64,000 bases of DNA from Cochleicola gelatinilyticus (GTDB taxonomy: Bacteria > Bacteroidota > Bacteroidia > Flavobacteriales > Flavobacteriaceae). The position numbers and the translations under genes were made by a program. This document shows positions 38,062-51,600 of this stretch, in pieces. Each line of letters opens with the position of its first letter. Positions within the stretch are counted from its first letter, which is position 1. The notes below the pieces were generated by a model, which was not told the DNA's origin, made no database searches, and saw only the letters and a list, made by a program, of their open reading frames with translations. The DNA lies in the NCBI RefSeq assembly GCF_001637325.1, contig NZ_LRXL01000053.1, forward strand, positions 124,001-188,000. Direction: 5' to 3'.

Positions 38062-38700
38062 ATGCCTGTTAATCTTCATTCCTTTGCCTTTCTTTTACTC
38101 CTATCTACAACCGTTTCGCACCTTAGTGCACAACACATCGATATTGACAAAGAGGCACTTTCGTTTCTTGCTTCCGAAGAAAATATCGCTATTACATTTA
38201 CGTACAATGAACTTTTATTTAATGCCGACGATACTCCAGAAGAAATTTATTTAAAGGAGGCGGAGCTTAAATACAAAGAACGACAAGGAGCAGTAGAGGC
38301 CGCAAATTGGCTGCAAAATTACACTACATCTAAAAATAAAATGTGGCCCGAAATGTTCCTCGAAACCTTAAACGAAAAAGTGGCTACGTATGAGAATGGA
38401 CCTGTATTTAATCGCACCGATTCGAATGCAAGGTATACAATGAACGTAAATACCACATGGATGTATTTCGGGTATGATGCATCCATAATTAAAGGACCTT
38501 CTAAAGTAAGTATGGACCTAACTTTTTTTGAGACAGCAACTCCTTCCAATATCATTTTTAAAACGACCATTCGTAGAGCTATGGGAAAAAATAACAGCTC
38601 AGACCACCCTGATGGTTGGGCTCATTTTAAAAGAGCAGGCAAAGCATATGTAAAAGCTGCTTATAAATTATCGCAAGCACTAAAAAGAGTAGTCGACTAG
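38062..38700 (+). CDS. Exported protein of unknown function, paralog A
   Basis: A 212-residue protein with signal peptide (to about residue 24, HLSAQH). It shares with the next gene the pattern IxxDKxALxxLxSEExxxxxFxYNEL, PEExYLKE, a central TxWMxFGxD and the ending L(A/S)xxLKRxV(D/K). Paralogy is clear; I recognise no known family with confidence. A strong consensus promoter lies directly upstream. Likely periplasmic or surface protein. Confidence 0.75.
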   Translation: MPVNLHSFAFLLLLSTTVSHLSAQHIDIDKEALSFLASEENIAITFTYNELLFNADDTPEEIYLKEAELKYKERQGAVEAANWLQNYTTSKNKMWPEMFLETLNEKVATYENGPVFNRTDSNARYTMNVNTTWMYFGYDASIIKGPSKVSMDLTFFETATPSNIIFKTTIRRAMGKNNSSDHPDGWAHFKRAGKAYVKAAYKLSQALKRVVD

Positions 38701-38812: not shown

Positions 38813-39457
38813 ATGCGCTTACCAAAACCAATACTCCCCTTTATTTTTATATTTTTTAGCATCTCTATTTCGAAAGGCCAAACCATTCGACTAGACAAAA
38901 CTGCGCTTGCTGGATTGGTTTCCGAAGAGACCGTGAATGTTATTTTCGCTTATAACGAACTTACATTCGATGTGACTTATATTCCTGAAGAAGAATACCT
39001 CAAAGAAATCCACGAGAAAATTGCGCGACGTAGTAACCCAAAAGCTGCCTACGACTGGCAACGAGATTTTAAAAAAGGAAAAGAAGAGGACTTTCCAAAA
39101 GCATTTGTAGCCATTTTAAATGAAGAATTAAAAGACCATGACAAGGTTCCAACCTTTATTTTGGGAGCAACCAACTCCAACTATACACTTGTGGTTCATA
39201 CCCACTGGATGAATTTTGGTTGGGATATTGGTGCTGTAAAACAACCTACAAAAGCACGTATGACCCTTTATTTTTATAGAACAAACGATCCTGTGAATTT
39301 TATTTCAAAAACTGAAATCCGCAATGCAGAAGGTTTAGTGAGTGACAGTCGCTATGGAAACGGTCTAGGCCCCCTTCCCTCCTTAGCGAGTTTACAACAT
39401 GTATATGAACGAGTGGCACCAAATCTTGCTAAAGGACTTAAACGAATTGTAAAATAA
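38813..39457 (+). CDS. Exported protein of unknown function, paralog B
   Basis: A 214-residue paralog of the preceding gene: signal peptide (to about residue 22, SKGQT), IRLDKTALAGLVSEETVNVI, FAYNELTFDV, PEEEYLKE, THWMNFGWDIGA and a final LAKGLKRIVK. The pair arose by tandem duplication long ago, with roughly a third of positions shared by eye. 112 bases separate the genes, so each could have its own promoter. Function unknown. Confidence 0.75.
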   Translation: MRLPKPILPFIFIFFSISISKGQTIRLDKTALAGLVSEETVNVIFAYNELTFDVTYIPEEEYLKEIHEKIARRSNPKAAYDWQRDFKKGKEEDFPKAFVAILNEELKDHDKVPTFILGATNSNYTLVVHTHWMNFGWDIGAVKQPTKARMTLYFYRTNDPVNFISKTEIRNAEGLVSDSRYGNGLGPLPSLASLQHVYERVAPNLAKGLKRIVK

Positions 39458-39507: not shown

Positions 39508-39515
39508 TACATTTG
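39508..39515 (+). promoter_or_regulatory. Promoter -7 box of the leader/MFS transcript
   Basis: TACATTTG matches TAnnTTTG exactly and places the transcript start about 15 bases before the leader ORF start at 39536. The nearest TTG upstream (39474) is too far at 31 bases. Confidence 0.5.
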
Positions 39516-39535
39516 ATTTTTCAATTACACTTACA

Positions 39536-39607
39536 ATGAAAAGAATAACATATATCGTGTGTACCACAAAGGTTTCTAAAAAGAAACAAAGGCGACGTAT
39601 GTTATGA
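39536..39607 (+). CDS. 23-residue leader peptide upstream of the MFS gene
   Basis: ATG 39536 to TGA 39607. The peptide starts MKRITYIVCTTKV and ends in a basic tract KKKQRRRML. It lies just downstream of a -7 box, has no paralog in the window, and is followed by a perfect terminator hairpin in front of an MFS transporter gene. Together these features match translation-attenuation leaders of antibiotic-resistance genes, where a drug-stalled ribosome remodels the RNA. The peptide product itself is probably not functional outside this role. Inducer unknown. Confidence 0.6.
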   Translation: MKRITYIVCTTKVSKKKQRRRML

Positions 39608-39664
39608 CTATATAAGAATAAATAAATTCAATTTCTAAACGTCTCGCCTAATCGCGAGACGTTT
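39545..39664 (+). promoter_or_regulatory. Putative attenuator with competing RNA stems
   Basis: Four segments: 1, ATAACATA (39545-39552); 2, GGCGACGTATGTTAT (39591-39605); 3, AAACGTCTCGC plus C (39637-39648); 4, GCGAGACGTTT (39654-39664). 1 pairs with the end of 2 (8 bp); 3 pairs with 4 (11 bp, the terminator). The start of 2, GGCGA..CGT, can instead pair with ACG..TCGCC in 3 with a two-base bulge, which would block the terminator. A ribosome stalled early in the leader would cover 1 and favour the 2:3 pairing, i.e. readthrough into the MFS gene. Confidence 0.55.
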
Positions 39665-39673
39665 TATTTTTAT
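39637..39673 (+). terminator. Terminator hairpin between the leader ORF and the MFS gene
   Basis: Perfect 11-bp stem AAACGTCTCGC/GCGAGACGTTT (39637-39647 with 39654-39664), six-base loop, then TATTTTTAT. It ends only 10 bases before the MFS start codon, so it must be bypassed for the transporter to be made from the upstream promoter. Confidence 0.85.
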
Positions 39674-39683
39674 ACCAACCGCC

Positions 39684-40907
39684 ATGAAAAAAATGTATAT
39701 CAATTATCTGAATAATTTCCGAGGACTCTCGCGAGAGATCTGGTTGTTATCCCTAGTTACATTTATAAACCGCGCAGGAGCGATGGTTATACCATTCTTG
39801 TCGCTATATCTGGTAAATTCTAAAGGCTTTACATTGCCACAAGTGGGAATAATTATGACGTGTTTTGGGGTCGGTTCTTTAGTTGGAACTTGGATAGGAG
39901 GACGATTAACAGATCGTATTGGTTTTTACAAAGTAATTGTAGCCAGTCTATTTTTAGGTGGAGTAGGATTTGTTTTTCTTCAATACCTAAATAGCTTTTA
40001 CGCACTCTGTACTGGTATATTTCTATTAATTCTTATCGCAGACGCGTATCGACCTGCCATTTTTGTAGCAAGTGAAACTTATAGCAAACCCGAAAACGTC
40101 ACACGAAGCATTACGCTAATACGCCTTGCCATAAATCTTGGATTTTCTATTGGTCCATTAATTGGTGGACTCATTATCGCAAACATAGATTATAGTTCAC
40201 TTTTTTGGATCGACGGACTTACATGTATTGTAGCTTCACTTTCATTATTTATTTTATTAAAACCTAAAAAAGTAGCCAAAGATGCACCGAAAACGATACT
40301 TGTGAAAGAAGGAGTACCTCCCCATTTAAATGGATTTTTCCTCTTATTCTTTGTAATTATGATTGCAAACGGGGTTATGTTCGTCCAATATTTTAGTGTC
40401 GTTCCCTTATATTATGAAAAAGCACATTTCCTTTCGGAAGACCTTATTGGATGGCTTTTATTTTTAAACGGATCCATGATTGTACTTTTCGAAATGCCCC
40501 TTGTGAGTTGGTTAGAAAGAAAAAAAGTTTCAAAAACGATGGCGACCTTTTGGGGGGTAATTCTATTGGCAGCAAGTTTTATGGTCTTAAATCTAACTTC
40601 ATGGAGCGGGATTCTAATAATAGGAATGCTTCTCATGACGCTAGGTGAAATGATTGGTTCTCCTTTTTCAAACGCGTTAGCACTCGAAATGGCACCAAAA
40701 GGACGAAAAGGAAGCTATATGGGCTTATACAGCATGAGCTTTTCTTTTTCCCACATTTTCGGTCATAACGGAGGAATGAACTTAGTAGATTCGCTAGGAT
40801 ACGACACCACTTGGACCATAGCGGCCGTGTTTCTTGGAATTGTAGGAATTGCTACCTTGTGGTTGTATTATTTATTAAAGAAATCACCCCGTTTTATCAC
40901 AACATAA
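39684..40907 (+). CDS. MFS efflux transporter
   Basis: A 407-residue major-facilitator protein with about twelve helices. The loop 2-3 motif A is GTWIGGRLTDRIGFYK and the N-half has FGVGSLVGTW. It resembles drug/metabolite efflux MFS proteins of 12-helix type. Substrate unknown, but the attenuator-like leader upstream suggests induction by a translation-blocking drug (inference). The lipoprotein gene downstream starts two bases after its stop. Confidence 0.88.
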   Translation: MKKMYINYLNNFRGLSREIWLLSLVTFINRAGAMVIPFLSLYLVNSKGFTLPQVGIIMTCFGVGSLVGTWIGGRLTDRIGFYKVIVASLFLGGVGFVFLQYLNSFYALCTGIFLLILIADAYRPAIFVASETYSKPENVTRSITLIRLAINLGFSIGPLIGGLIIANIDYSSLFWIDGLTCIVASLSLFILLKPKKVAKDAPKTILVKEGVPPHLNGFFLLFFVIMIANGVMFVQYFSVVPLYYEKAHFLSEDLIGWLLFLNGSMIVLFEMPLVSWLERKKVSKTMATFWGVILLAASFMVLNLTSWSGILIIGMLLMTLGEMIGSPFSNALALEMAPKGRKGSYMGLYSMSFSFSHIFGHNGGMNLVDSLGYDTTWTIAAVFLGIVGIATLWLYYLLKKSPRFITT

Positions 40908-40909
40908 AC

Positions 40910-41686
40910 ATGAAAAGATACATACTAATTATATGGGTTTGCTTCGGAATCTCCTCTTGTGGGAACTCTTCTGAAAAAAGAACATCTGTTTCTTCGGAAA
41001 ACACGATTCCTGTTTCAGAAAACCGTAATACTTCTGAAGCATTTCAACTGAAACTGAACCCAAAGAATTACAATGTAGGAATTTTAATTATGGATGGTGT
41101 ATACAATACAGAACTTACAGCACCGTATGATATTTTTCAACATACAGTTTTCCGTAAAAACATTAAGGCAATGAATGTTTTTACAATAGCGAAAACGAAT
41201 GACCCTATAACAACCTTCGAAGGTATACGCTTGCTGCCAGACCTTAATTATTTAAAAGATTCAATTCCCAAGATCGACATCTTTGTTATTCCTAGTGCAG
41301 AACACCACATGAATACCGATCTAGAAGATGATGTAATGCTTCAATTTGTAAGAACCGTCTCGGAAAAGGCTCAACTAGTCACTTCCCACTGTGACGGATC
41401 ATTTGTATTAGCCAAAGCTGGACTTTTAGACAATAAAGTTTCAACAACTTTTCCTAGTGATGTAAATGCTATGAAAAGCATGTTTCCCGAATTAGACATT
41501 CGCAACGAAGTTCTTTTCGTGCATGACGGAAAGTTTATCACTTCTGCAGGAGGTGCAAAAAGTTTTGAAGCAGCACTTTATGTATGTGAAATATTATATG
41601 GTAAAAAAATAGCCCAATCTTTGGCAGACGGGCTTGTAATAAATTGGGACCTTAAAAAGGTTCCACATCTTATTGTTGATCGTTAA
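40910..41686 (+). CDS. DJ-1/PfpI-family lipoprotein
   Basis: About 258 residues from ATG 40910 (MKRYILIIW); the longer frame would overlap the MFS gene by about 100 bases. Lipobox GISSCGN (Cys17). The DJ-1/PfpI glutaminase-like domain covers ~55-250: NVGILIMDGVYNTELTAPYDIF, IDIFVIPSAEH, and the nucleophile elbow TSHCDGSFVLAKAG. Cytosolic relatives are AraC-type or amidase proteins; an anchored extracytoplasmic form is less usual. Cotranscribed with the MFS gene. Confidence 0.85.
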   Translation: MKRYILIIWVCFGISSCGNSSEKRTSVSSENTIPVSENRNTSEAFQLKLNPKNYNVGILIMDGVYNTELTAPYDIFQHTVFRKNIKAMNVFTIAKTNDPITTFEGIRLLPDLNYLKDSIPKIDIFVIPSAEHHMNTDLEDDVMLQFVRTVSEKAQLVTSHCDGSFVLAKAGLLDNKVSTTFPSDVNAMKSMFPELDIRNEVLFVHDGKFITSAGGAKSFEAALYVCEILYGKKIAQSLADGLVINWDLKKVPHLIVDR

Positions 41687-48613: not shown

Positions 48614-51600
48614 TTACATATTTCTTCGGTACTGTCCGCCAACTTCAAATAAAGCTTCGGTAATTTGACCTAAAGAACAAACTTTCGTTGCTTCCATTAG
48701 CTCTTCAAATATATTTTCATTTTGTATTGCTGCCTGTTGAATACGCTTTAATGCATTTTCGGCTTTGCTTTCGAATGAGGTGTGTAAATTTTGAAGCGTT
48801 TCAATTTGATATAGTTTTTCTTCTTCAGTAGCACGAATAACTTCAGCAGGTTGCACTGTAGGAGAACCTGTACTACTTAAAAAAGTGTTTACTCCGATAA
48901 TTGGAAATTCACCAGTATGTTTCAACGTTTCGTAGTATAAACTCTCTTCTTGTATCTTACTTCTTTGATACATGGTTTCCATAGCACCTAAAACGCCTCC
49001 TCTTTCTGTTAATCTGTCGAACTCTTGAAGCACTGCATCTTCTACCAAATCGGTTAATTCTTCGATAATAAAAGATCCTTGTATTGGGTTTTCGTTTTTA
49101 GCAAGCCCTAATTCTTTATTGATAATTAACTGAATAGCCATGGCACGTCGCACACTTTCTTCAGTAGGAGTGGTAATGGCCTCATCGTAGGCATTGGTAT
49201 GTAGTGAATTACAATTATCATAAATAGCATATAATGCCTGCAATGTTGTTCTAATATCATTAAAATCAATTTCCTGAGCGTGTAAAGAGCGCCCCGAAGT
49301 TTGAATATGATATTTGAGCATTTGCGCTCGTGCATTAGCACCATATTTATTTTTTAATGCTTTTGCCCATATTTTTCTAGCCACACGTCCAATAACGGCA
49401 TATTCTGGATCGATCCCGTTACTGAAGAAAAATGATAGATTAGGACCAAATTTATTAATATCCATTCCTCTCGACAGATAGTACTCTACATACGTGAAAC
49501 CATTAGCCAATGTAAAGGCAAGTTGCGTAATTGGGTTAGCTCCAGCTTCAGCAATGTGGTATCCACTAATAGAAACTGAATAGAAATTACGCACTTTTTT
49601 TTCAATAAAATATTCCTGTACATCACCCATTAGGCGCAAGGCAAATTCGGTGGAAAAAATACAGGTGTTTTGTGCTTGATCTTCTTTTAAAATATCGGCT
49701 TGAACGGTACCACGAACTTGCTGTAGTGTTTCGTATTTAATCTTATTATACACATCTTCTGGAAGAACCAAATCACCGGTTACACCTAATAACATTAATC
49801 CTAATGCATTATTGGTTTCGGGCAAAGTACCTTGATATTTTGGCCGTTCAATCCCTTTCTCTTTATATAGAGCTGCAATCTTTTTCTCTGTTTCCTTTTC
49901 GAGTCCGTTCTCTTTAATATACTTCTCACAATTCTGATCGATTGCTGCGTTCATAAAGAAACCAAGCAACATAGGTGCTGGACCATTAATCGTCATACTC
50001 ACCGAAGTCATGGGATGACTTAAATCGAAACCAGAATATAATTTCTTTGCATCATCCAAGCAACAGATAGATACTCCAGCGTTTCCAATTTTACCATAAA
50101 TATCGGGACGATGGTCAGGATCGTTTCCGTAGAGGGTTACGCTATCGAATGCTGTTGATAATCGTTTTGCAGGCAATCCCATACTTACATAGTGAAAACG
50201 GCGATTTGTTCTTTCGGGGCCACCTTCTCCGGCAAACATTCTTGCAGGATCTTCACCTGTTCTTTTAAAAGGGTATAATCCAGATGTGTACGGAAACTCT
50301 CCAGGTACATTCTCTTGAAGCACCCATTTTAAAATGTCTCCCCAAGCGGTATATTTTGGTAAGGCTACCTTGGGAATCTGTGTATGCGATAATGATTCGG
50401 TATGGGTATCGATTTTAATTTCTTTTTCACGAACTTTAAAACTATATACTGGGTTTTTGTATCTATTTACTTTTTCATCCCATCCAGTGATCACTTCCCA
50501 ATTATAAGGATCTAAGTTTAATTTAACTCTATCGAATTCTGCCAATAAAAGTTTTACTAATTCTTTATTTGAGGGGTTTTCTATAGATGCTGAATCAATC
50601 CCAGCTTTATCAAGTTTTGGAACTGTTTCAGAAACGGACTCAATTGTTTTATATATTCCGAAGAGTTTTTGAGCCACTTCTCCTTGTTCTGAAGCAGTTT
50701 TATCGTACGCTCTATTATTTTCACTAATTTCAGAAAGATACCGCGTACGTGCAGGAGGAATTACGAATATTTTTTCAGACATTTCATCTGAAATTTCAAA
50801 GCTACTTTTAAGATCAGTCTTTGTTTTGGACATTAATTCATCCATGATCGCTTTGTATAATTTGTTCATACCTGGATCATTGAATTGAGATGCAATGGTT
50901 CCATATACAGGAAGGTCTTCTTGAGGGGTATCCCATAATTGGTGGTTTCGCATAAATTGCTTTTTCACATCGCGAAGTGCATCAAGAGATCCTCGTTTAT
51001 CGAATTTATTGATTGCCACTAAGTCGGCAAAATCGAGCATGTCAATTTTTTCGAGCTGAGTCGCAGCTCCAAATTCTGGTGTCATTACATAGAGTGCAAC
51101 ATCACTGTGATCCATAATTTCGGTATCACTTTGTCCAATTCCTGAAGTTTCTAAAATTATAAGATCGTATTCGGCGGCTTTTAAAACTTCAATGGCTTCA
51201 GACACATATTTAGACAAAGCAAGATTGCTTTGTCTCGTTGCCAAACTTCGCATATAAACTCTAGGAGAGTTAATGGCATTCATTCTAATACGATCTCCCA
51301 ATAATGCTCCACCCGTTTTTCTTTTAGAAGGATCTACAGATATTAGACCAATAGTTTTTTCTGGAAAGTCTATTAAAAAACGACGTACTAATTCGTCCAC
51401 TAACGATGATTTTCCTGAACCCCCAGTACCTGTAATACCTAGTACTGGAGTTAAAATTGTTTTATTTTTTAAATGAATTTTATTTAGCGCATCCTTTGCT
51501 ACTTCTGGAAAATTTTCTGCGGCAGAGATGACACGAGCAATGGCTCCAGGCACTTGATCTGCTAGATGATCTATCTCCCCATTTAGCTTGTCTCCTATCG

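Follow-up and report, generated by a model that had tools for sequence, protein, structure and literature searches.

Upstream of an MFS transporter gene of Cochleicola gelatinilyticus, a promoter box, a very short ORF and a terminator follow one another, which raises the question of what decides whether transcription reaches the transporter gene. The locus was analysed within a stretch of 64,000 nt of contig NZ_LRXL01000053.1, hereafter called the window, and compared with related genomes. With good confidence, the arrangement is read here as a ribosome-mediated transcription attenuator, in which a translation inhibitor would stall the ribosome on the leader and so free transcription of the MFS gene.

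Organization of the locus

The features of the locus are listed in Table 1. The TAnnTTTG box and the 23-codon ORF were both present where the original prediction had placed them, and the two mutually exclusive pairings, including the bulge in 2:3, were exact as it had described them. The terminator had been described as ending 10 bases before the MFS start; its 11-bp stem held, but the stem ends 19 nt before the ATG (39684) and only the U-rich tail comes within about 10 nt. Transcription is predicted to start a few nucleotides 3' of the promoter box, just past 39515, and no -33 TTG box was seen by eye at the usual spacing upstream of TACATTTG. The leader ORF is not preceded by a Shine-Dalgarno-like sequence; Bacteroidota ribosomes largely ignore such sequences.

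Table 1. Features of the leader region and of the genes that follow it, in window coordinates.
Feature	Position	Strand	Remarks
-7 promoter box, Bacteroidota type TAnnTTTG, TACATTTG	39508..39515	+	from the sequence
Leader ORF, 23 codons, MKRITYIVCTTKVSKKKQRRRML	39536..39607	+	stop TGA at 39605-39607
Segment 1, ATAACATA, codons 4-6	39545..39552	+	5' arm of the 1:2 anti-antiterminator hairpin
Candidate stall core, codons 12-14 (K-V-S)	39569..39577	+	position matches the conserved core of relatives
Small hairpin GTTTCT-aaaa-AGAAAC	39572..39587	+	tentative predicted fold, nested between segments 1 and 2
Segment 2	39590..39605	+	AGGCGACGT (39590-39598) binds segment 3; 39598-39605 binds segment 1
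Segment 3 (5' arm of terminator)	39637..39649	+	39639-39649 also pairs with segment 2
Intrinsic terminator	39637..39674	+	11-bp stem 39637-39664 and U-rich tail; segment 4 is 39654-39664
MFS transporter gene, 407 aa	39684..40907	+	12-TM-type, drug-exporter-like; PF07690, 183.9 bits
DJ-1/PfpI-domain gene	40910..41686	+	2 nt past the MFS stop

Segment 1 is the exact complement of TATGTTAT (39598-39605) over 8 bp. The 2:3 pairing joins GGCGA/CGT (39591-39598) with ACG/TCGCC (39639-39648) around a 2-nt bulge and is lengthened by an extra A-U pair between 39590 and 39649. The fold predicted for the stretch 39588-39652 is this 2:3 hairpin. The terminator hairpin measures 28 nt with a loop of 6 nt and is the strongest terminator-like site within a 10-kb stretch. 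The region 39508-39690 folds at -38.7 kcal/mol (z = -4.8), and none of 200 shuffles was equally stable.

A same-strand gene (38813-39457) ends shortly 5' of the attenuator, and no Pfam or NCBIfam match was obtained for its product. This gene and its neighbour 38062-38700 are alike in length, starts and ends (ALKRVVD and GLKRIVK) and look like tandem paralogues. The same order of parts recurs at only one other place in the window, at 48697 on the - strand: a TAnnTTTG box comes first, then an ORF of 27 codons and then a strong hairpin followed by a run rich in T. The spacing there differs, and this arrangement may be due to chance.

Genes probably under control of the leader

The MFS product was assigned to MFS_1, and it scored far under the cut-off of every named NCBIfam exporter; MdtH and Cmx/CmrA came nearest. 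Its nearest solved structures are 3wdo (E 3e-10), which we take to be E. coli YajR, and NorA. The protein likely exports a drug. The DJ-1/PfpI-domain gene is probably part of the MFS transcript, as suggested by the 2-nt spacing, and its product has an apparent lipoprotein-type start.

Conservation across genomes

The MFS protein was matched in 177 of 251 Flavobacteriaceae genomes, the weakest matches being ordinary MFS paralogues. Up to 450 nt upstream of 110 MFS homologues from this family (46-78% identical) were parsed for promoter box, ORF and terminator, and the complete anatomy was found 5' of 100 of them and in none of 220 dinucleotide shuffles, so the anatomy exceeds what chance would give. 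An additional set of named genomes, among them Aequorivita, Altibacter, Zunongwangia, Ulvibacter, Winogradskyella and Kordia, has the same anatomy. The spacing of the parts is strikingly constant over the 100 relatives: in 91 of them a TAnnTTTG-type box ends 17-22 nt 5' of the leader ATG; in the 100 loci the distance from leader stop to terminator is 19-33 nt, and the leader ORF of the family has 18-28 codons and ends inside segment 2 throughout. Conservation of the ORF and of stem complementarity in relatives, on which the original prediction had staked itself beforehand, was thus borne out, with covarying helices.

Outside the family, two further families of Bacteroidota (L151 and L153) have the same design before MFS homologues that are about 50% identical, and in both the terminator arm matches the leader end. 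In addition, a 48% identical MFS gene on plasmid pAT3 of Aureibacter tunicatorum (L178), which belongs to another order, has a leader-like ORF and a terminator upstream, and this plasmid copy possibly carries the attenuator design.

The attenuator was absent from the MFS homologues L157, L158, L161, L162, L228, L229, L049, L066, L092, L097 and L105. Four of them from one large genus (L157, L158, L161, L162) have a TAnnTTTG-like box directly 5' of the gene and no leader, and the leader is likewise absent in Flavobacterium beibuense and F. rakeshii (L228, L229). In several attenuator-free homologues the promoter box abuts the gene as if leader and terminator had been deleted, which makes them natural candidates for constitutive expression. 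In Aequorivita capsosiphonis (L206) the region before the MFS gene has no leader, and a palindrome found there, CCTGCCTGCCGGCAGGCAGG, looks like an inserted repeat.

A covariance model (R1), trained on 49 sequences with the window left out, was run on 298 genomes of the order. It matched the window at E 2e-5 as the top match in its own genome, and all matches stronger than the window, together with the weaker L130, precede the same MFS gene. Further copies were sought with model R2 within the own genome and with R1 across the 298 genomes, and the additional matches were all weak; several of these hit both strands at one place, as expected of a plain hairpin, and the MFS gene was absent from the weaker loci that were fetched, L130 aside. 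The element thus accompanies this pump and not resistance genes generally.

Pairing and covariation of the three helices

In the 100 loci, the cognate 2:3 duplex had a mean energy of -12.6 kcal/mol versus -9.5 for mismatched species pairs, and the cognate 1:2 duplex -11.2 versus -9.6 kcal/mol; for either helix the cognate energies were reached in 0 of 10000 permutations. In the 49-sequence alignment, the terminator (3:4) had 98% of its cells paired and showed 22 double changes, the share of paired cells was 88% for 2:3 and 78% for 1:2, and sliding the partner by one column lowered the paired cells to 57% or less for all three. Thus 1:2, 2:3 and 3:4 all covary in relatives. In close relatives the terminator arm reads CCCGC, CCGGC, CCCGAT, CCGGT or TCGCC, and segment 2 mostly has the matching complement. 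Column-wise counts of 2:3 pairs in the alignment of close relatives (A1) were dropped since gaps shift the columns, and the energies of cognate and non-cognate pairs were used instead. On these comparative data, the attenuator, its conservation, its three helices and their mutual exclusion, and its tie to the MFS family are regarded as established.

For the small nested hairpin, the corresponding region in relatives had a mean z of -0.60 against shuffles, compared with +0.40 for codons 2-11, which hints weakly at a fold. A second antiterminator helix, lying further in, also seems to be present in most relatives; it is weak in the window. Its 3' strand imitates segment 1 (ACAATAT; in close relatives TCAATA with TATTGA). 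In the larger alignment (A2), an ATATTGT block at the leader end and a TACAATAT block some 20 nt upstream of the terminator were seen by eye and left uncounted.

The leader ORF and its peptide core

In A2, all 54 gap runs within the ORF were multiples of three, versus 85 of the 296 runs in the spacer that follows, and in A1 the same held for 8 of 11 ORF gap runs, where runs were tallied per sequence and are not independent events. Pairwise comparison of 16 distinct Aequorivita-type leaders gave 47 synonymous-only versus 306 changing differences before the core and 38 versus 204 after it, so that both flanks vary freely, whereas the core Q-V-I-S had 114 synonymous-only versus 15 changing differences. 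Reading frame and codon pattern mark the leader ORF as a conserved coding sequence.

The synonymous changes in Q-V-I-S are mostly in the Ser and Gln codons, while the Val13 and Ile14 codons are nearly invariant. Since these two codons hardly vary and fall within the predicted small hairpin, part of their conservation may reflect constraint on the RNA. The core of the larger group of leaders is K-Q-x-T-S, with synonymous variation in the conserved codons, and the counterpart in the window is K12-V13-S14; the core is not a single invariant motif across all groups. Among 138 distinct leaders, of which related ones are not independent, [V/T/I]-[S/T] occurs in residues 12-15 in 61% versus 13% after shuffling.

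The basic pattern +x+, at which macrolides are known to stall ribosomes, was found in residues 2-14 of 17% of leaders versus 30% after shuffling, and it is thus depleted before codon 15. In the window the basic tract KKKQRRR starts at codon 15.

Simulated stalling and proposed mechanism

The mechanism would run as follows. Transcription would begin just past the promoter box, and a ribosome would translate the 23-codon leader. Running unhindered, this ribosome would cover segment 2; once it is gone, or if it is absent, segment 1 would hold segment 2. In either state segment 3 would pair with segment 4, and RNA polymerase would stop near 39670. An inhibitor would stall the ribosome at about codons 12-14 (K-V-S, the counterpart of Q-V-I-S and Q-x-T-S), where it would cover or melt both the nested hairpin and segment 1 while its front edge halted a little before segment 2. 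The freed segment 2 could then pair with segment 3, the terminator would not form and the MFS gene, probably with the DJ-1/PfpI gene, would be transcribed. We infer the drug-induced stalling, the stall site, the inhibitor as trigger and the export of this inhibitor by the MFS protein.

The stalled state was simulated by placing a ribosome at every codon of 100 leaders and folding the remaining transcript up to the terminator 5' arm. With P-site codons 2-13 the antiterminator had a mean probability of 0.7-0.8 in silico, and from P-site codon 16 onwards 0.2 or less. In these simulations most leaders had codon 13-15 as the last permissive one, the window leader had codon 13-14, and 99 of the 100 leaders were switchable. 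Because the last permissive codons coincide with the conserved core, the core is predicted to lie at the stall site that frees segment 2. The preference of the original prediction for an early stall is thereby sharpened, in the model, to codons of about 12-14, with a conserved peptide core at the last permissive position. Its expectation that segment 2 would be masked by a ribosome halted on the basic tract also agrees with the model, where P-site codons 16-23 abolish the antiterminator. The macrolide +x+ pattern was rejected as the stall signal, as it is depleted in the usable region and, in the model, a ribosome stalled on the window tract from codon 15 masks segment 2.

A ribosome stalled at codons 12-14 leaves part of segment 1 uncovered. 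In the window RNA, as long as no ribosome is present and segment 4 has yet to be made, 2:3 (0.82) prevails over 1:2 (0.12) at equilibrium, and in the free half transcript the mean for 2:3 across leaders is 0.63. Because 2:3 is favoured in the free window RNA, 1:2 must either exert its effect through kinetics or be less important than the scheme implies, and default termination would come about either by kinetics, with 1:2 and the nested hairpin forming first, or by a ribosome entering segment 2. The same pairing preference speaks for a mechanism in which termination simply depends on translation: the running ribosome, which always masks segment 2 as the ORF always ends inside it, would cause termination, 1:2 would be secondary and an untranslated or slowly translated leader (drug, starvation, cold) would give read-through with no specific arrest peptide. 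This mechanism is rather unlikely, since the 1:2 pairing is conserved and covaries, and a general sensor needs no peptide core with synonymous variation.

Drug-type attenuation is favoured here by analogy, because the known systems of the same design respond to ribosome-targeting drugs (PMC4191407; PMC10314930). It is tentatively suggested, as a possibility well short of the attenuator reading itself, that the Q-V-[I/V/T]-[S/T] and Q-x-T-S leaders form a new class of drug-dependent arrest peptide on Bacteroidota chromosomes, inherited with one MFS family over many genera and sensing an environmental inhibitor, not a clinical drug.

Other explanations of the leader

An attenuator of the trp/his/phe type, in which a charged tRNA is sensed by the leader and its amino acid is carried out of or into the cell by the MFS protein, would follow an identical three-hairpin logic, and leader attenuation of amino-acid operons has been reported in a flavobacterium (PMC9723704). 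In codons 7-15, however, the share of the 138 distinct leaders that contain any given residue twice is at most 35% (Thr being the highest), and the likely transcript (MFS, DJ-1/PfpI) holds no biosynthetic gene. With no consistently repeated residue and no matching pathway gene, this explanation was rejected as very improbable.

Alternative helices are by themselves no proof of control by a ribosome, and a riboswitch or protein-bound leader, in which another ligand selects the helices and the small ORF has no role of its own, would also contain them. This is more improbable still, given that the ORF retains its frame, start, stop position and peptide core; moreover, Rfam gave no family at gathering score in the window and one chance snoRNA match only, and no aptamer-like invariant unpaired core was seen. 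Least probable of all is a mere terminator of the gene 38813-39457, which does end just upstream on the same strand, with a chance ORF and an MFS promoter behind the terminator, because the element remains linked to the MFS gene, and the box, the ORF and the covarying helices recur in 100 of 110 genomes.

Significance and comparison with known systems

The ribosome-mediated attenuator would be a chromosomal, vertically kept antibiotic-sensing element in Bacteroidota, a phylum with few such systems described, and would draw attention to an intrinsic efflux gene, the activity of which goes unseen unless its inducer is present. More than 100 natural variants make the arrest motif and the inducing drug directly testable, and the element could be used as a biosensor and expression tool in Bacteroidota.

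ErmCL and ErmAL1 have short hydrophobic beta-branched stall cores (FVI-S and AVV), stall at codons 8-9 and control methylase translation. The QVIS, SVV and CVV of close relatives recall these cores, and by analogy the likeness, which the K-Q-x-T-S group does not share, offers a lead, no more, towards macrolides. Phenicols and oxazolidinones prefer Ala, Ser or Thr before the P-site residue, and the T-S doublet of the K-Q-x-T-S group would suit either class. The tetQ leader of the Bacteroides element CTnDOT exerts translational control over a ribosome-protection gene on a mobile element; it is also a leader-peptide system for a resistance gene in Bacteroidota, but unlike the present element it has no transcription terminator switch.

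In the literature covered, which included few subscription papers, no report of the present element and none of such a design in Flavobacteriaceae was found, and the transcriptome paper on F. psychrophilum mentions leader attenuation for amino-acid operons only (PMC9723704). Leader-controlled terminators before exporters are known; in that literature no description seems to exist of the present family of leaders, of the peptide core or of how widely the leaders are conserved among genera.

A close parallel in design is the bmrB leader, which controls the multidrug ABC transporter bmrCD of Bacillus subtilis and on which 50S inhibitors (lincomycin, erythromycin, chloramphenicol) induce read-through; a start-codon mutant of bmrB was reported to be off and uninducible (PMC4191407). 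Both share a small ORF, an anti-antiterminator, an antiterminator and a terminator before an exporter gene. The bmrB system, however, has a 53-codon ORF with the terminator within it, serves an ABC transporter and belongs to Firmicutes (PMC4191407), whereas the present leaders have 18-28 codons, end in segment 2, lack a Shine-Dalgarno-like sequence, occur in many genera and precede an MFS gene.

Transcription attenuation by a leader peptide is also used by mefAL-mefA and msrDL-msrD, which reside on mobile elements; MefA is an MFS exporter, MefAL (MTASMRLR) has the macrolide +x+ motif, and MsrDL (MYLIFM) is stalled at termination (PMC10314930). The present element shares the leader-peptide attenuation with both and the MFS exporter with mefA; unlike MefAL, its leaders have +x+ depleted before codon 15, and unlike both systems it is inherited with one chromosomal MFS family.
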